From contig NC_088300.1 of the NCBI RefSeq assembly GCF_032854445.1, forward strand, positions 60,982,984-61,046,983: 64,000 nt of DNA. Reading direction: 5' to 3'. Under the pieces are notes generated by a model that did no database searches, had not been told where the DNA came from, and worked only from the letters and a program-made list of their open reading frames with translations. Of the stretch, positions 484 to 63,924 are shown in pieces. Source of the stretch: Liolophura sinensis. Lineage: Eukaryota > Mollusca > Polyplacophora > Chitonida > Chitonidae. Within the stretch, counting starts at the first letter, position 1; every line of letters starts with the position of its first letter. A program made the position numbers and the translations under genes.

Positions 484-3400
484 GACATGGTGAAAGACAA
501 AGGAAATCGTCTGTTAGTTGATTCCTCGTACATGAGAAAAGGTGGCAATACCATAACTGATTTAAGGTAAAACAACAAAACAGAATGAAAAGTGGTGTAT
601 AAGGAAGGGTAGATCGAAATGTTAATAGACAAATAGGCACATTGTAAAATCATTTGACCTGATCATAGACCAAGCGATATAAAGCATTGTTCCTAAAGAC
701 CCTTAGCTGAGGTCACTGCTTCCAAATCTAACTCAGTCATCCATGCTCAGCTTTGCATTGAGATGTTAGTATATGTAATAGAAAATACAAAGATAAAAAA
801 AAAAGAGTTTTCTTCATCTGCAAATCTGTTGATGGCTAAATACATTTTACACGGATTTCAGTTTTAGTTAGGCAGTCTCATGGAAAGAACTTATTCTGGG
901 AGTTGTTTAATTGCCAGCTGGATATAAAGTTATATAAATGACATTGTTATCTTTGTTTCAGCATGGTTGGAGTAAATGATAGCATTGTTTCAGTTCTGGC
1001 ACTGAAGGATAAATTACAGATGTACAGAGAAATTGACAAGTGAGTTAAAAATTAATCACATCTTATATATTTACACTTTGCAAAGATGTCATGTGGTTTA
1101 GAAGGTGCCAAAAGGAGTAGTACCCAAATTTGCTGAGTAGAAAATATATTGGTATTATTTTTTTTGGTGATTTATCGCCCTCTACCCATAAGTCTGACTT
1201 CCATTGTAAAGGTGAAAAATTCTTGAGAATATCAAATATTAAAAAAAGGTGAATGTTTCCGTCTCTAGGATTTTGTGCTCTTGCCAAAGAAAATATCAGA
1301 AACAGTGTAAAATGACTTTAAAATAAAGATAAATTCCCTTGCCCCAAGCCTGGATATCCTGAGTACGATAACCGTGGATACAGAGATAGAGGCCGAGCGT
1401 AACAAATCCATGAATGACGCCAGCGTGTTACTGATCCGGGGATTGAGAGTCAACAACGATATCACCAAGGACACAGAGGACAAAGCAGTAGGGATGTTTC
1501 AAGCTAATGAGCGCAACCTTGAAAAGAGGTTAGCAGAGGAATACAGACTGGACTCAAATATTATCTTCAAGGATATCAGCATAAAAAACAAGGTTAGTTT
1601 TTTTAAATATTATGGCTGTGATCTATGGCTGAGTTTTAATTAAGACGTGATCCCTTTCACTAAATCACAATATAAAACTCTGTGAAAGTGATGTTTTCAG
1701 GTTGTTTAGTCCTGTTTTGGGGTAAAAAAAAATCATGTACAATAACCTTTGATTCTGTTGAGAAATTTTTAGAATAAAATGTCCAATAATTTTAATAGGC
1801 TGAACGTAGTGACCATTTGATTGATGGTAAAAAAAAATGGATGATGAGCAAAAAAAAAAAGGATTTTGCTAAATATCTGTATGTAGTCATAGATTTTGTA
1901 TCAGTCAGTGTTATATACATAGTTGTGTTGTTTCTACAGCAGTGTGTGATATCTTATGTGATGTACATCATTCTTTGATAGAATAAGTTGTCTGAGTTGA
2001 TCAAGCATCAGAGTGAAGAGAAGCGGAGAGTGGTGGAGGAGACAGCTGCCATGGAGGAGAAGGTGAGAGGCATTAAAGTCAGAAATGGTTAGAAATATAA
2101 TTATCCGATCAACCATGGTTATATTAACTTTGATTTTGAAGGAGGACCCTTTACTGACCAAGTACAATTATGGGATTTCTCAGAAGAGTATTCTTTAACT
2201 GGTGAGGTGAAGTAGTCTTTAGAGCCCGTTAGGAAGGTACCTGGTGAAGATTTGTTGTTTTTTAATCCATGAACCTGATCGTCATCACATACCTGAAATG
2301 TTTTTGTAGTGCAGATTGAAACAAAGAAATAAATACATAAACTGATTGGCAGGATCGCCGTGAGCTGATGGATATGATGGACCAGCAGCATGAGTCAGAA
2401 CAAAACGAGGTCACCTATAAGCTGAAATTGGAGCAGGACGAGTTAACAGAGAAACTGAGAAAGGTAAAAAACATGAAGCTAGCTGACAATTTCTTTGTGA
2501 GCTTTTAGTGTTTTTAGATGTGCACAAGGTGTACCAAGAAAACCTCCTACATATATTTTGCTATTAAGATTCAAATTCTCAACTCTGTAACTCTTTGGCT
2601 TCTTTATTATTTTTGTACAATATTAATAACATTAAGAGATCAGCATTCAGGATTTTCCTAAGTGTTTTTAAGTGTTTCACATAAAATAATCCGCTTTTAA
2701 CATTATATTGTGATTATTTGACACAGGATAAGTGATTGTCTTTTCAGTGATTCAAGGAAAAGAATGTATATGTAGTATCTGTGTAATATATGAAGTATAT
2801 AAAAATATGGTTTTATAATTATGTACATTATTACACAGTGCATGTGCAATTACATCTACCTTCCAACATATGATGTTGATATACCCATAATCGTTCGTGA
2901 CCATATGTGGCATTAACGCATCTTTTTCATTGGTTTATCCAGGAATATGCTGTTAGGAAGAGAATGGGTTTGAAAGAATTACAGCAGCAGCTTATCAACG
3001 AAACGGTCAGCCAGGGTAAGCTGAACGAGCAGCAAGCTGATTGGTTGATAAAGGAGCACCAGAAGGTGCAGGCGGCCATAGACAAGATGTATGACGATGA
3101 GATTTCCAGACAGAGAATGAGTCTGGAGGAGAAACTAGCAAGGAGGAGGGCACTTGCTCATGCCAGTGTGAGTTTTACCTGCTCTCAAATAATTAGGTTG
3201 CGTTAAAATGGGTGTTACTCTGCAAACATACACAGATCATTAAGTTTAAACATGTAGTTAACATATTTTAGGTAATAACTGTATTTATAATAGTGTTTGT
3301 GTAGGTTTTTTTCCTTCAATTTCAGGAATGCACAGGTAGTTATTTGAACTTGAATTTGCTTAGACTTTCATCAAACATTACTACTTAGACATTCACCATA

Positions 3401-16290: not shown

Positions 16291-17119
16291 ATATTTGTGT
16301 GTGATGATCTGTGGTATTATTTTTATACATTCAGACCTTGATGTGCACATCTGTGATACGAGAAAAATGGCATTTTACTGTTTTGTTAAAGGATATTCTT
16401 TTTATGTGTATTCTGCATGTATATTCATTATTATTTTTTTTTTTCCTTATTTATTTCTTTTTGGGGGGGGGGGCGGTGTTGGGGGGAAAGTTTCTATTTG
16501 TAGCATCTTTACTTGAGTCCATTACAATGTTGCTCGTTAGACTGGTAGGAGAGCTATTGAAGCCTCCACGTGCATGTAGATTATATCCTAGATTATACAT
16601 GTAGAACTTATATGTTGTTTATATCTTATCTGTATTCTATATACAGCACATGTGTGTATATTCATGGATATAAATATATGAAAATATGTACATCAGGCTT
16701 TCATTTCATTTGTTTTACTGGTGTTCAGAAGTCCACAATGAAGATTGAGTTTCACCAACTTGATGAAAGTCAAGTTTGTGTTATTTAGATATTTACTTGA
16801 TTGGAAAGTACAGGGCAAAATGAGTTTACATGTGTACTGTTTGCACACCAAGATAAAAAAAATATTGATATCATGGCTGTTTAAATCCATACTCAAGATC
16901 ATTCTAGTTATGCACAATATATATTGCTGGGTTTAGCTCTGAGAAAATCCATACGGTTTCTACCCCATCACTACTCCACAAAATCATACAGTTTTACATG
17001 TAAATAATATGCGTTTACCTCTACATGTGTTTGTCAGGAAAGGAATCATAGAACTTTAACATGTGAAGTGCTGCTAAGGCAAGAATAAGTGGTAGGATTG
17101 CAGAGTTCAAACCTAATCT

Positions 17120-21630: not shown

Positions 21631-31880
<10,250 letters not shown>

Positions 31881-32397: not shown

Positions 32398-35300
32398 ATG
32401 CAAAGTCTGGGTGTTCTCTTAGTTTTCTTGATTTCAGCCTGCCATGGGCTTTATTTTCATATTGGGGAAACACAGAAGAAGTGTTTCATTGAAGAAATTC
32501 CGGACGAAACTATGGTAGTTGGTGGGTATTGTGCCATGAAAGGGGCTACAGACGACGTTGTTGTTGTTATTACTTGTCAGATTCTGCCGGGTGTCCACAT
32601 GTAGACGTGTACAACACATATGTGATTTGTAAAATTCATTTTTCTTGACTAGATGGTGAAAGTAAAACTAAACCTGTACAGCTATATTCCATCAAGTATA
32701 TAACATTTTTAACTTTGTATTTATTTCAGTTTGTCAGCATTTAGTTTTAGTAAAGATTTCACGTGAAAATCACCCTTCAGTAATAATGTTACTTTCTGCC
32801 GTGAGCTTAGTTAGGAAATTAGATGCTTGTTGCAGATTGTTCATTTTCTTAGTGCTACCATTTGGCTCTAAAAATTTCTGAATAGTTTTGAGAAATAAAG
32901 TGTCAAATTTCAAAGTACTTACATGTATGTAACTAGAGTTAGTCCGAATACCTGGCGCCAAGGACACATATATTTCATGTTGGGTCTGTCATTGGTGCCA
33001 GAACCCACTCAGCCCAAAAATTGTCAGGTGGGTTGTTCACTTCAAGCGGTGAAAATCAACATTTAATACTGGCCAAACATGTTAATACATCCTTCACCAC
33101 AAACCTGAATGAGTTATTTTTGCACACATGCCTCAAACACAGTCTGACACAGAGCATATTGATCGCTACTGGCCACTGAATCTCGAATTTGACACACACA
33201 TCTCTTCCCTCGCCCTAACTCATGCCAGCAGTGACATAGTTGAATGTGTACACAGATTCTCAATAAGTCTCGTTTGCTTATGGCAGCATGACAGGAAAGC
33301 TTCAACCTACCACATGACACAAACAGCATGCCGGTGGTCAAACTAATGTTGTGCGAACAATAATTTTGGATAAGGATGAGAAATTTGAGTTAAAAGGGAA
33401 GCGTTTGAGAATTACAACCATTTTCACTAAGTGGAACGGGGCCACGGTTCAGATGAAACCCTTGAACATAGTCTTCCATCTCCAGTTACACCAGAACAAC
33501 AGTCCATGTCATACATGCCATGTAGACAGGCTGTTAATAAAAAATAGGTGTGTAGATGTTAAAACCGAGCAACTACATGAGGCTGAAGAAAAGTTCCAAA
33601 AGTCTGCAAACCCAAAACCTACATAGCAAAAAAAAGTTGCCATTACTTCGTGTAAAACAATTACCATGATAGGGCCGCATAGTTTCATGCGTAATCTGCA
33701 TAGCCAAGGTTCATGGGGTTTTATCAAGCCCCCAGAAAAAAGCAAACGATGGAAATGTAAGTTTAACTGATTCTTTCATTTTTTTCAGAAGTAAGTTTTA
33801 GATTTAAATAAATCTTTTTTTCTTTGAGATGTGGTAGGTGGCTTGTGCCGAATGCAGAGCTAAATGTTGTAGGTTGACCTTTCCTGTCATGCAGACGTAA
33901 GCAAACAAGACTCATAGAGCATGTGTGTACTACATCACTGCTGGCGTGAGTTATGGCGATGGAAGAGAACTGAGTGTCAAATTTGAGATTCAGTGACAGG
34001 TGGTGATCGATATACTCGGTGTCAGACTCTTTTTGAGGCATGTGTGCAAAAATTCAGGCATGTTGGTGAATGTTGTTTTAATGTGGTTGGACAGTATTAA
34101 ATGTGGATTTTCGTCGCTCTAAGGGTACTACCCACAGACACCTTCAAGGGCCACTTTTTGGCCTGAGTGGGTTCTGACTCCAGTGACAACCCCAACAAAA
34201 AAGACATGTTGTCCTTGGCGTCAGGTATTTGGACTAAATTAGAGCAGGCCTTCCTTGTGCTTGTTATTGTTTATTATGTTCATTCATTATCCTTTTGTAG
34301 GCAGGTATAAGGTTGAGATGTTTGACAGGAACACCAATAGTTATGTGGCAACATATGCCTATGGTTTGGGAATGCATGTCACTGTCAGGGACCCTGATGA
34401 ATCTGTGATAATGTCAAGGGTAAGCTGTGTGTCAGAATGGCAAAGCAGCATGTTGCAGAAGCCCAGATCTGAAGGAATGCTGTATGTGAAATAGTGTGTG
34501 TGTGAAACTGGAGAAAACAACAGGTTAAAGACAGTTACTGCACACCAAAATGTCTATGGATGTCTGACCTTGAGTTGGAGATGATTAGATTCTGTTAGCT
34601 GTTAAATTGTCTACTATTGACAAACACTACAGATTCATGAGTCTTGAGCTCTGTTGTTTTCCCAGGGTTTCACAAGGTCTGGTGCTTTTATCGCTAATCT
34701 GAATTAATTGTAGAAATGAATGTGTTCTAATTGATGTGTTTTCCAGGTAATTATAAAGTACAAGTGTTTGACTATTCTGTAAAAGCGTACATGCCTACTG
34801 CTCCCGGTGTGGGCATGCATGTTGAAGTAAAAGATCCAGTGAATAGCGTGGTTTTGTCAAGGGTGAGTTATGCCCCTTTGATCAAGTGGAGCTTCCATAG
34901 TTCACCTTGTATTTAATTATTTGTGTGGTATGGGGCAAGTTTTTTGTGTTGTAATGCTTTTTAGTGTTTTATTTTAGCAGTAGTTTTTGTGAGAATGTTT
35001 TCCTGTTCATCATTTTGTAGTTAACAGTACACTTCAGCTTGAGTACTGATTTTGCTTGTATGCATATAAATGAACCAATTGAATTTCATGGGTTTTCAAA
35101 GTCACTGCATAAGGGAATGTCCCGGTATAAATCACGGAAGTAAATTGGATGTTTCTGGCATAGTTTTTGGGGGAAAGATGAGAGATGTCAATAATTTCAG
35201 ATGCATTGTAAGCATTACTGCACATTGGTTGTTGTAAGGGTGGAAACCAAGTACAGTATTCATTTTCTGTGAAATTGGGTTTTTTGTGTGGTGGTGGGGA

Positions 35301-38261
35301 GTCCATTGCTTTTGGAAAGTACTTGATAATTTCATTACTACAGAAAATAGGAAACAAATGACAGTCTTAGTTACATTACAGGTCTGCAGAAGTCTTCTGT
35401 ACTGTCATAACTTAACAGCTTTTTAAAACAATATCTGGTCTGGTTTAATTTTTATATGTTTAATGTAGTCAACATTCTTACTGTATTATCAAATACTAAC
35501 TCATGGATTTGGTGCATTTACACAAGATATGGCTTTCCATAATTTAGCTTTAGCATTAATTTTTACACGTCTACAAGTGTACATATATGAGTTTGTTTGT
35601 CTTTGGATAGCTCTCTGTGAATGAAGGTGTGTTTGATAATGTAAAATTTGTTTCATTCCTCTCTACAGTGTACGAAAATGTGCTCTGTTATTGTTTTGTG
35701 TGTTTTAGGTTTTGGCTCTAATAAAATGTTTTTAGGTGGAGTTTTCTTGGCATGTCTTTTATGTGATTTATTTTCCCAAGACAATGTTTAGAAATACTAA
35801 TGGACTTTTGGTCTTCATTCTTATGTCAATAAATACTGGTTTTCATGCATAATTTAGCATCCTCATAACGCATTACTTAAAATCTGTAGAGACAAAGAGA
35901 AAACTGTCTGAGCATAATGAATTGTCAACTTGTACACAACTTCAGTACAGAATGTAGCCTGTATGAGTCATAAATTGTAGACAATAGCTCAACTTCTGTT
36001 TTCTAATTTTTTTTGATTCTTGTGCATGTAGATCATATAAATGAAGCAACCATTTTCGTACCTTCACTGATCCATTTATTTTAAAGTTTTTTTTGAAGAT
36101 ACATACGAAGACCATGTAGTATTTAGTTGTGTGTGAGTAATTCTTTCTATTCTAATTGATGAGGACTGTCATTACAGACGTATGCATCTGAGGGTCGGTT
36201 CACCTTCACCTCCCATTCAGCAGGAGAACATGTCATCTGCCTCCACTCCAACTCCTCAGCATGGTTCTCAAGTGGACAGCTGGTAAATACATGCAGTTTT
36301 GACACAAATTTGTAACTTCTGATGTCATATTTCATTTCTGAATTGTTTTTATTTTTGAGCCGTAGATGGAACTTATCTAGTATGAAGTAGATTTAAAGCC
36401 AAGCCCTATTTGATATATACTACTGCATTACATGAATTTCCCCACAACTTTTTGATATTGTGCAGCCAAGTGAAAAGTATACACTTGCGATTAAAGACAG
36501 ACCTGTAATTTTATGGTATATCTTTATCCATAAAATAAACAGTTTTCTTACAAGTATAAAAATTTTTGAGTAAAGCGTTAAACAACATTCAGTTAAGTGA
36601 CCATTTTGGTATACGGTTTTATATCCATACAGAGTCCATTCAGTGCTCATATACTTAGAACAGACCCAGAAGCCTATTAAATACATGGATCCTGATTTGA
36701 GAGTTTTCATCATATGATGCATTGCTTTTTTTTTCACATAGAACCTTTAAACCAGAACGGCTTATATACATATATGTACAATTATTACAGAAGTGTATTC
36801 AGAATGGATTTTGATGGTCACATCTTGAATTTCCAAGATTTTGTTTTGTGTATTAACCTGTCAGTGCATTCCAGTGACATTACAACTGGACTAATGCTAA
36901 AGTGTACTAGTTTTGCATTCTGTCTGACCTTCTTCCTTTCAGAGAGTGCACCTGGACATCCAGGTAGGAGAACATGCTGTGGACTATCAGCAGATCCAGG
37001 CCAAGGATAAGCTGAGCGAGCTTCAGTTACGGGTACGGCAGCTATTGGATCAGGTTGAGCAGATCACAAAGGAGCAGAATTATCAAAGGGTAAGCGTTAT
37101 GAAAGGTACGGGTTACTCTAAATGACCTGAAATTTCGTCCATGACCGAGTTGCTCATTTTTCCATATTTTTGGGAGTTCTATGGATTTTAGAAGGGTGCT
37201 TTGAGAGAGGTTTGGAAGTCAGATGATATTCTACTGGGAAAATGTAAATGTTAGCTCCAGAAGTAATATCTCATGACATTTATTTGCCTCCAGAAATGTT
37301 CTTTTATGGTTAATTTTATAGGTCATTTAGGGTAGATGTATATATGGTTAAAAGAAATGGAAACTGGTTCTAACCGTTTTGATGTGGTAAGCTTTCCTCA
37401 TAGTGAAATAAATGCAATCAAATGCTGAGTGATAGAAATAACCATGGTGTCAGGGAGATAACTGTCCTTGTAACATTGACGACCAAAACAAACAAAAAGA
37501 AAATATAGCAAACAAACTACAAAAGGCTCCCACATTTAAGTGGGACATGAAATCTCTCTGGAGTTTGCAGTGAATTTGGATGAAATGGAGAATTTTTCTT
37601 TGCTTTTGACCCTGTATCCATCTGAGATTTCTGTTCCAATTTGTAAGACATTGTTACTCCACAGGTACACTGACCCGTTTTTGAATAGGAAGAAATGTTG
37701 TTCCAGTCCAAAAAAAAAGCCTTATTTGTATCAAATTTAGATAATTCTAAAGAATTCCAAACAAGTGACAGTTTAGATGTTTGTCCCAGGAGTGTTTCTT
37801 GTAGAGAAATACATGGATAGAGGTTGCCAGAACTGAAGCCCATACTTGTCGGCAGTGATATCTAGGTTTACGAGCAGGGGCAGATTTACAATCTTCATAA
37901 TTTGTTAAATGGTCAGCAATCTTACAGAATATTAATACAGATGTTTTAGTACAAGTTTTTATGACAGACATTTGCTTCTTTATTACAGTGTTGTTGACTT
38001 TGTTTGGGTTGTATCTCATGATTGTTACAATATACTCGGGTGGTGGGGGTGGGGATGCTTGTGTCAGTATAATTGGGAGTTCTTATGGATTGTTTGCCTT
38101 GTTGGTTTCAGTATCGTGAGGAGCGTTTCCGTCAAACCAGTGAGAGTACCAACCAGCGAGTTTTGTGGTGGTCCATTTCACAGACCGTCATTCTTCTAGT
38201 TACAGGCTTTTGGCAAATGAAACATCTTAAAAGTTTCTTTGAGGCCAAAAAATTGGTCTAA
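32398..38261 (+). CDS. TMED9: p24-family transmembrane emp24 domain protein, TMED4/TMED9 type
   Basis: Exons 32398-32521, then 34301-34419 or 34747-34862, then 36178-36282, 36943-37089 and 38112-38261, give 214 or 213 residues. p24 proteins are ER-Golgi cargo receptors of COPI and COPII vesicles. Residues 1-17 are a signal peptide (ending SACHG). The lumenal GOLD domain follows, with Cys29 ([12 protein letters not shown]) and a second cysteine in [11 protein letters not shown] as the expected disulfide pair. Next come a coiled-coil region ([19 protein letters not shown], then [10 protein letters not shown]), one membrane helix ([17 protein letters not shown]) and a short cytosolic tail ending SFFEAKKLV. 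The tail has the FF pair for COPII and KKxx for COPI. The C-terminal half is nearly identical to vertebrate TMED9/TMED4, which marks the alpha subfamily. I cannot separate TMED4 from TMED9 orthology, so the symbol is provisional. Exon 2 is duplicated (separate entries). Confidence 0.95.
32939..34237. mobile_element. Foldback-type element with about 400-bp inverted arms
   Basis: The left end reads TTAGTCCGAATACCTGGCG and the right end is its near-perfect inverse (CGTCAGGTATTTGGACTAA). The inverted similarity runs inward for about 400 bp on each side, to roughly 33330 and 33830, with small indels. For example, 33115-33330 (GCATGCCTCAAACACAGTCTG region) matches the reverse of 33830-34040. The loop of about 500 bp has no recognisable transposase. 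Flanks ACTAGAG and ATTAGAG could be a 7-bp target duplication with one mismatch. The element ends about 60 bp before p24 exon 2a. Confidence 0.82.
34301..34419 (+). CDS. TMED9: p24 gene exon 2a (alternative copy)
   Basis: This 119-bp exon lies between TTTTGTAG and AGG|GTAAGC. It encodes [20 protein letters not shown] followed by [20 protein letters not shown], with the first glycine split from exon 1. It corresponds to the same part of the GOLD domain as exon 2b but differs most at the tip (YVATYAYG against YMPTAPG) and is one codon longer. It keeps the frame when used alone. Confidence 0.88.
34747..34862 (+). CDS. TMED9: p24 gene exon 2b (canonical-like copy)
   Basis: This 116-bp exon lies between TTTCCAG and AGG|GTGAGT. 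It encodes [19 protein letters not shown] followed by [19 protein letters not shown]. The length and the P-x-x-PG-x-GM-x-VEVKDP pattern are those of vertebrate TMED9, so this is probably the ancestral version. It lies 327 bp downstream of exon 2a. Confidence 0.92.
37116..37333 (+). mobile_element. MITE-like element, family 2
   Basis: Best-preserved copy, with CTCTAAATGACCTGAAATTT at the left and AGGTCATTTAGGGTAG at the right. It begins 27 bp after the donor of the fourth p24 coding exon. Confidence 0.8.
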
Positions 38262-46890: not shown

Positions 46891-49096
46891 GTTTAATTCA
46901 GGTATGATGAGACATGGGCTATATTTCAGCCATATTATGTTGACAAGAACATACTAAAAGCAGGAAACATGAGAAACATCCAAAATAAAAATTAAATTGA
47001 ATGGATACTTGTGAAACCATCTTCAAAAAAAAAAAAAAAAAAAAGTAAGTTTAAAATTCCAACCCGATTTTAAATATTTTTTATTCATGTTAGGGTAGTA
47101 TATACACATGTACATTATATTTTATTATATTGGCCAGTCTAAATATTTAATGACCGCATCAACTGTAAAACTGTTGAAATTCATGTATGGAGTTTTTAAA
47201 CCACTCCATAAAAAATTTTATAAATTTTAAAATTCTGGTCGTCTCGTTTCCAATTTTTTCATAATTTTTCCACATTAATTTTGACAGAATAGGACGCCTC
47301 AAAGACACTGAGCTTCTCCCCCCCTCTCAACCACCATGGCGAAACTTATGTGAACTGTTCAAACCCTTGTTAAATAGACGATCAGGATATGTTTGATGCT
47401 GTATCAGTGTCATATGTGTGGAACACACTTGGGAGCAATGCTGCCAACAAGAGTAATCTGATCAAAACATACCAGAAGTGTAAGAAATCAGTTATAGCTA
47501 ATGATGGTGGATTTCATTGAGTTTAATCAGACTTACAGGTCTTATTTATACTAATGATCTATCTGATTATAATGTTTATCCTGGGAGTAAGATAGACATC
47601 TATCTTATCCCAACTTTATTTGAAATAATTAACTTTTTGATTCAGTCTAGTAATTAATGTACTCGTACTTCTGGTACACTGGATAGAAGTGTATTACCTG
47701 GTGCTCATATAGTCTGCAAAAAAGCTGATTTTAATATGTTTTAATGGTGATCTTCGGTAATAGTATTGTTACAAGTTTGAGAATATAGGATGTAGCAGGT
47801 AGGCCTATAGTCTACTGTACATGCCAGGGCACACGCACGCACATAATCATGGACCACATTTGATGTGACAAATTTGATCAAGGATATATGTAAACAAATC
47901 CTTTCTCAGAACTCCAACTTTTACTGCACCGGATCTCTAGTTTCTAGCTTGCCCTACCCTGGCCATGAATGACAAGAGACATTACATGAAGGCCTATGTG
48001 ACCTCTTCATTGTTGTGGACGGATGTCTGTAGTGCCTGTTGGCCTTTCACAGTTGTCAGATGTCCTTTATAGACTCCGCCCTTGTTTGGGAAGTTTAAAG
48101 GAGTGCACATTGTATACCAGGAAATGTGATGAGACACAACCTATTTCCGCACAAATTGCATTCTTTACCTGCATGTGCATGTCTTGTAGTTAACACTTGT
48201 TAATTTGACAGCACTTGTTGTGTTCAGTCTGGGACAGAATTTTCAGCTTATTTAGTGTGAAACACACATAGACTGGTATTAGAGACGTGAAAGTGTCAGG
48301 TATATGAGTTAGCTGTTAGTAACATGTTCTCTGGGTATGGCCATATAATAACCTGGACCGTAATATTGTCAGCTTTACAGACATGAAACCACAAATATTT
48401 TACCGTAGATAATTATTGCTCTGATGATATTAAGTGTATCGAGCGGCCTTTTAACACTAGTAGGAATTTACTCTGAGATTAATTGACTGATAATGTTTGT
48501 GTTTATTGCTATAGTATTATGTAGTATTTATTTATTTTTTTCATTTTTGATTGAACTTTAGTGGGTAGGATGTAAATAGTTTACCAGTGGAAGATATTGT
48601 TTATAAATCATTAGGACAAAAACTGCTTCCGGCGCTGAGAAATTAGGTCAGGTATTTCAGCAGACGGACGTGAAATCCTAGAACTGCATGTACTCATTCT
48701 ATCAGATTGAAGTCCAGAATATATATATGTATTGTGTGGGAAGAAAATTACTTGATAAACACGTAGGACCAGCAGAGGAGAAAGATCAGTTTACATTGAC
48801 TTATTGAGATACTATTGCACTGCAGTTTATAGTGTAGGAGAAATTTTATGATTTCTTGTAATTAATGCATCAGTCCAAGTGACAGCTGTGTATTTTTAGA
48901 TGTTTTTTAATTTTTTCTTTTTTTATTATTATTATTTGTTTTTGTTTTTTTTTGCTTATAGAGGGTTTGATTATAGCAATCGCCTCGCCTAATATGATTT
49001 CATAATTGGTAATTTACATACATGTAGAATTGTACATTTTCACTTTTTACCTCTCTTAGGTAAGCCTGTGTACAATATAACCTGTGATATAATAAG

Positions 49097-63924
<14,828 letters not shown>

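Follow-up and report, generated by a model that had tools for sequence, protein, structure and literature searches.

Mutually exclusive tandem exons are a well-known device. Exons 4a and 4b of OGDH (PMC7969005) and the tandem exons surveyed in PMC9741552, as described in the available portions of these papers, are adjacent homologues that match in phase and are interchangeable in frame, and the combined length of OGDH 4a and 4b is not a multiple of 3. The pair considered here, exons 2a and 2b of a p24 gene of the mollusc Liolophura sinensis, exhibits all of these features, including that of combined length, but it differs from the mutually exclusive OGDH exons in that it resides in a p24 cargo receptor and is predicted from sequence.

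The p24 proteins are treated as general receptors, and their choice of cargo is poorly understood. Regulated splicing of a p24 gene is already known from mouse Tmed2, which encodes a beta-p24: according to the accessible text of the papers concerned, induction of CELF1 in the heart lowers inclusion of Tmed2 exon 3 from 79% to 13% (PMC4448682), and the gene also has a QKI-dependent muscle isoform and contributes to muscle physiology (PMC5840707, PMC10202634, PMC7532667). Unlike the mollusc gene, Tmed2 belongs to the beta class and, as described there, has a single alternative exon and no homologous pair. In Trypanosoma brucei, the p24 proteins TbERP3 and TbERP4 differ by life stage, and TbERP4 serves GPI-anchored cargo in the procyclic stage (PMC5506558, in the part available); separate genes are exchanged in that organism and exons in the mollusc, and the analogy is one of function only. 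The human alpha-p24 proteins TMED4 and TMED9 are likewise encoded by separate genes, as given in the excerpted text of PMC10620864, whereas in the mollusc a single gene carries one of its exons in two versions.

Among the literature matches listed, whose coverage is partial, none was seen to describe an alpha-p24 with mutually exclusive exons, and this absence is weak evidence. TMED and p24 are also absent from the main text of PMC9741552, a survey of events in human, fly and worm. In the parts of the splicing literature that were available, TMED4 is named, with no particulars, among human genes listed as differentially spliced, and TMED10 and TMED3 appear in other contexts. The novelty suggested by an earlier note on this DNA may hold for the exon arrangement, as no mutually exclusive TMED4/9 exons were found in the literature searched, but not for regulated p24 splicing as such, which mouse Tmed2 exemplifies. 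Judging from its sequence, the mollusc alpha-p24 gene is likely to be a new example of the device.

The gene was found in a stretch of 64,000 nt of the Liolophura sinensis genome (the window), where it is complete and occupies positions 32398-38261 of the + strand. Its features, with positions in the window, are as follows.

32398-32521, + strand: coding part of exon 1; signal peptide, start of the GOLD domain and first disulfide cysteine; ends in phase 1, donor TTG/GTGGGT
32939-34237, no strand assigned: fold-back repeat element of intron 1, about 1.3 kb; ends 63 nt before exon 2a
34301-34419, + strand: exon 2a, 119 nt; variant GOLD segment; first G codon shared with exon 1
34301-34304, + strand: bases of exon 2a between two acceptors, TAG/GCAG/; use of the second AG would shorten the exon to 115 nt and end translation after 75 residues
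34420-34746, + strand: intron between 2a and 2b, 327 nt; two separate UG runs, at 34426 and 34494
34747-34862, + strand: exon 2b, 116 nt; canonical GOLD segment; first G codon shared with exon 1
36178-36282, + strand: exon 3, 105 nt, phase 0; part of the GOLD domain, second disulfide cysteine and an N-S-S sequon
36943-37089, + strand: exon 4; end of the GOLD domain and coiled coil
38112-38261, + strand: exon 5; end of the coiled coil, membrane span, SFFEAKKLV tail and stop codon

The inverted-repeat arms of the fold-back element are about 77% identical over 377 bases, and a genome search with one arm finds another 18 partial matches, which are 65-91% identical to it.

Both predicted products resemble human TMED9 more closely than other p24 proteins. 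TMED9 is the top match in the PDB for the 2b form, with 338 bits (TMED10, 97.6; TMED2, 55.5; TMED5, 23.7), and the 2a form matches it with 323 bits (TMED10, 96.1; TMED2, 55.5; TMED5, 23.9). The Pfam family EMP24_GP25L (PF01105) scores 191.0 bits for the 2a form and 191.7 for the 2b form, against a curated cut-off of 25.9. The C49-C121 cysteine pair and the tail motifs of TMED9 are described in the accessible text of PMC11414720; in the alignment with TMED9, the product has both cysteines and a coat-binding tail of the FF...KK type, its C-terminus reading SFFEAKKLV. The domain order, the cysteines, and the FF and KK tail motifs are thus common to the mollusc protein and to human TMED9 (PDB 9cjk, 21gl) and TMED4, and on these matches the gene is an alpha-class p24 (TMED4/9).

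A search of the 609-Mb genome with the 2a-form protein gave 12 matches, six of which are the exons of this gene, while the remaining six have at most 44% identity and only partial coverage. The gene therefore appears to be the sole alpha-p24 gene found in the genome, DNA lying in gaps being invisible to such a search. None of the 12 matches is a retrocopy recording a splice form. Five other p24 loci were matched, comprising one delta (L005), one beta (L004) and three gamma-like loci (L001-L003), classed by eye. One of the gamma-like loci, L001 (G000:C6:37135871-37136401), is a distant but complete p24 without introns, with a single open frame of 227 codons, and is perhaps an old retrogene.

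We consider it probable that an old tandem duplication of exon 2 has given this gene, the only alpha-p24 gene found, a mutually exclusive pair, whose members would be used one at a time in mRNA. In the scheme that we infer, which extends to use in mRNA, exclusivity, decay, a regulator and altered partner or cargo preference, splicing of each pre-mRNA would place one of the two, 2a or 2b, between exons 1 and 3. The two resulting receptors would differ over 38-39 lumenal residues of the GOLD domain and would have in common the signal peptide, disulfide cysteines, coiled coil, membrane span and coat-binding tail, with 2b providing the canonical form and 2a a diverged, retained variant. Transcripts containing both exons or neither would be out of frame, would meet early stops and would be subject to nonsense-mediated decay; this frame incompatibility, together with a splicing regulator, for which a CELF-type protein is one candidate, would leave one exon in each productive mRNA.

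The homology of the two exons is clear. Both correspond to the same stretch of human TMED9, residues 63-100, and, with the shared preceding glycine included, 2a and 2b are identical at 21/39 positions, 2b and TMED9 at 20/39, and 2a and TMED9 at 15/39, with 13/39 columns identical across all three. Their alignment score of 106 compares with a maximum of 17 over 2000 shuffles of 2a, and in tblastn searches of the window each exon retrieves the other at 1.8e-10. The claim of the earlier note that they are alternative versions of one GOLD segment in a TMED4/9 gene is borne out. No third copy of exon 2 was found in the window with 2a or 2b at E values up to 1, and the 2b peptide has just two matches in the whole genome, 2b itself and 2a. 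The TMED9 segment gives one extra match in the window, at 48110-48166, which is at chance level (E 0.79). For exons 1, 3, 4 and 5, no second match in the window has an E value below 0.087. The search of the four paralogue loci that have introns, L002-L005, used exon peptides transcribed by eye for part of the exons, and its best second match within a locus has E 0.019.

Sequence divergence argues that exon 2a has been maintained. Between 2a and 2b, pS is 0.81, a saturated value with a rough 95% range of 0.61-0.94, and dN is 0.44. Over 39 codons, the differences at codon positions 1, 2 and 3 number 15, 10 and 26, respectively (position 2 vs position 3, Fisher P 0.0006). We let 2b drift neutrally, in a Jukes-Cantor simulation on one branch, and counted among 5000 replicates those in which the frame stayed open and the score was still 106 or higher. 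There were none at 0.6 substitutions per site, a level that amounts to roughly half of the lower limit of the synonymous distance; the corresponding counts were 0 at 0.75, 7/5000 at 0.5 and 83/5000 at 0.4. Exon 2a is thus very probably a real exon that has been kept for a long time. Both exons appear to be under protein-level selection, as judged from a pairwise comparison within one genome at saturated synonymous sites.

Comparison with TMED9 also gives some indication of age and polarity. Residues that two of the three sequences share to the exclusion of the third number eight for 2a with 2b, seven, plus a common gap, for 2b with TMED9, and two for 2a with TMED9. The estimated branch leading to 2a exceeds that leading to 2b in 1896/2000 bootstraps. 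With 39 sites and one outgroup, we tentatively suggest that the duplication postdates the split from the vertebrate line and is old within the mollusc line, and, with the same tentativeness on the same sites, that 2b may have retained the ancestral role.

The coordinates, lengths, phases and frame consequences given in the earlier note were all reproduced: exon 1 ends at 32521 in phase 1, exons 2a and 2b are 119 and 116 nt long, and exon 3 starts at 36178 in phase 0. Translated end to end, 1+2a+3+4+5 yields 214 aa and 1+2b+3+4+5 yields 213 aa. When 2a and 2b are joined, TAA is the 12th codon read in 2b; the predicted product has 92 residues, and the stop precedes the last junction by 332 nt. 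When exon 1 is joined to exon 3, TGA is the fifth codon counting the junction-spanning one; the predicted product has 45 residues, and the stop precedes the last junction by 238 nt. Among these four combinations, full p24 is obtained from the single-exon mRNAs only. As a rule, stops that lie upstream of the last junction by more than about 50-55 nt trigger nonsense-mediated decay, and those predicted for double inclusion and double skipping would both fit. The arithmetic of mutually exclusive splicing put forward in the earlier note is accordingly right in that only single-exon mRNAs are productive, but it adds no evidence of its own: every exon with a length of 2 mod 3 would show it once copied in tandem and in frame. 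It follows from the length of the duplicated exon and by itself is no proof of regulation. A duplication of this kind would have been tolerable only if the exons were spliced singly from early on, at least part-time.

Exon 2a has a tandem acceptor, in which the two AGs end at 34300 and 34304, 4 nt apart, and the second of which scores 9.07 as against 8.44 for the first; its use would yield the frameshifted 115-nt exon and would waste transcripts. The acceptors of 2a and 2b stand at the 98.5th and 98.1st percentiles of the 3787 AGs in the window and the donors at the 99.2nd and 99.6th percentiles of the 4086 GTs, according to tables that are vertebrate-type and untrained on Liolophura sinensis. 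The good splice sites claimed by the earlier note are confirmed to this extent, each of them ranking among the highest 2% of the AGs or GTs of the window. That both exons have strong sites would favour unproductive double inclusion unless this is prevented.

These same features could be read as those of a poison-exon switch, in which 2b makes the protein and 2a, included together with 2b or spliced through its second acceptor, yields decay-bound mRNA and so sets the dose of alpha-p24. The early stops in 1+2a+2b and with the alternative 2a acceptor are what such a switch would produce, and the strong sites on both exons, with no exclusion device found, suit it equally well. However, a poison exon requires no protein constraint, whereas 2a is held as a GOLD segment, with synonymous saturation and with codon position 2 conserved over position 3; moreover, 1+2a alone reads through to a full p24 with an equal profile score. 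We regard this switch as unlikely.

The branch-point region of 2a is weak, in that the best match to TACTAAC within 58 nt of the acceptor is 3/7, as compared with 5/7 for 2b, and the sole 5/7 match of 2a lies 64 nt off, on the border of the repeat element and farther out than the nearest upstream AG. This weakness, together with the repeat element ending 63 nt upstream and the longer branch of 2a in most bootstraps, which marks it as the faster-evolving copy, would fit the reading that 2a was functional for long and was recently retired, so that it is now unspliced in Liolophura sinensis. Nevertheless, 2a carries neither a stop nor a frameshift, and both of its splice sites are intact and high-scoring; recent retirement accordingly seems very improbable to us.

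Intron 1 up to exon 2a measures 1779 nt, and the sequence is also compatible with 2a and 2b belonging to separate transcripts with different first exons, that is, with alternative promoters. We give this little credence, as the least probable of the readings considered, because 2a starts in the phase of exon 1 and carries on its frame, and because the other exon-1-like matches in the window, at 16724-16792 and 62453-62497, are at chance level (E 0.087 and 0.36).

For the mutually exclusive pair that we prefer, several possible devices of exclusion were considered. Steric exclusion by a short intron or a branch point near the donor does not fit, because the 327 nt that separate 2a from 2b are too many if the branch point is near the 2b acceptor; the best branch-point-like match for 2b is predicted 17 nt before the exon, and the nearest upstream AG is 33 nt away. 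OGDH, by comparison, uses branch points 25-46 nt from the upstream donor (PMC7969005, in the portion available), an arrangement to which the mollusc intron does not conform. Incompatibility between U2- and U12-type sites does not fit either. The donors GTGGGT, GTAAGC and GTGAGT are all U2-like in comparison with the U12 consensus. Complementary stretches were sought in 28 pairs of gene regions, and one pair, with its best score in i1_5p near 32611 and i2b near 35564, was rarely reached by shuffles (1/60); with 28 tests, such a result can arise by chance and is unconvincing. Inverted repeats that touch the 2a donor region (33140-33158 with 34421-34439) belong to a region pair for which 29/60 shuffles reached the best score. 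The motif TGCATG was discarded as a discriminating element, as it is present in both exons, within the codons for the shared G-M-H-V.

UG runs are present at +7 and +75 past the 2a donor (34426 and 34494, within 34426-34504), and they resemble CELF/Bruno sites. This is a point of likeness to mouse Tmed2, as far as the available text on the latter goes: both are p24 genes, and alternative splicing is regulated in Tmed2 and a candidate here. These runs are a lead only, because 2.4% of the 327-nt stretches of the window contain at least two UG runs and because eight motif types were scanned in five regions, making 40 combinations. A CELF-type regulator would be a fair guess, since CELF1 controls exon 3 of mouse Tmed2. 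What is left standing, by our inference, would be a combination of frame incompatibility, decay of the wrong mRNAs and a trans-acting choice of exon.

The segment that would be exchanged shows less conservation than any other part of the mature protein. Identity to human TMED9 is 23/25 for mature residues of exon 1, 24/35 for exon 3, 42/49 for exon 4 and 41/49 for exon 5, whereas exon 2b has 19/38 and exon 2a 14/38; the earlier note had spoken of a normally invariant protein, a description that does not suit this segment. The largest difference between the two versions is found where TMED9 reads Q-P-A-T-P-G and 2b reads M-P-T-A-P-G, as against V-A-T-Y-A-Y-G in 2a, which is one residue longer and is devoid of both prolines of the canonical PxxPG.

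An effect on the face that binds cargo or partners, as proposed in the earlier note, is conjecture. In the accessible text of PMC11414720, prediction and mutants place the binding of frameshifted mucin-1 to human TMED9 at strand beta-2, and this binding depends on E52. TMED9 E52 aligns within exon 1 of the mollusc gene, so that the mapped cargo contact is encoded outside the alternative segment. Homo- and hetero-oligomerisation also involve GOLD domains, at sites that vary (PMC9888432), and so does binding of Tango1 (PMC10932740), in both cases according to the portions of those papers available. The exchanged segment might contact partners of these kinds.

It is possible, and we advance it with more reserve than the exclusive use of the two exons, that a cell-type- or stage-regulated exon switch, perhaps governed by a CELF-type protein, retunes the lumenal specificity of the only alpha-p24 and provides for two sets of cargo or partners. 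If this switch is true, other lineages would obtain such diversity by duplicating whole p24 genes. If the exon swap is real, diversity within one p24 class would arise via splicing as well as gene duplication. In addition, an exon swap in one GOLD segment, with the rest of the protein constant, would be a ready-made pair of constructs for examining the function of that segment.

Finally, some observations were made elsewhere in the window and genome. In the window, where the Pfam comparison covered eight of 46 open frames, two frames at 1311-3203 are weakly similar to an EVC2-like protein (Pfam E values of 0.0022 and 1.9e-5, neither match reaching the curated cut-off), an exon of a CCDC149-like gene lies on the - strand at 29308-29583 (Pfam E 9.6e-10), and a fragment of a Tc3-type transposase lies on the - strand at 57081-57506 (Pfam E 4.7e-10). 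In the genome, the contig G000:C99 (L006, L007), of 108,685 bp, contains seven COX1 matches spaced about 15.5 kb apart, and one more is found on C632; G000:C99 consists of head-to-tail copies of the mitochondrial genome, with a unit of about 15,537 nt. The mitochondrial genes, whose order was read from translations by eye, seem to be arranged as in the ancestral molluscan genome. Furthermore, eight mollusc haemocyanin beta-sandwich domains lie in a row on one contig of the genome.
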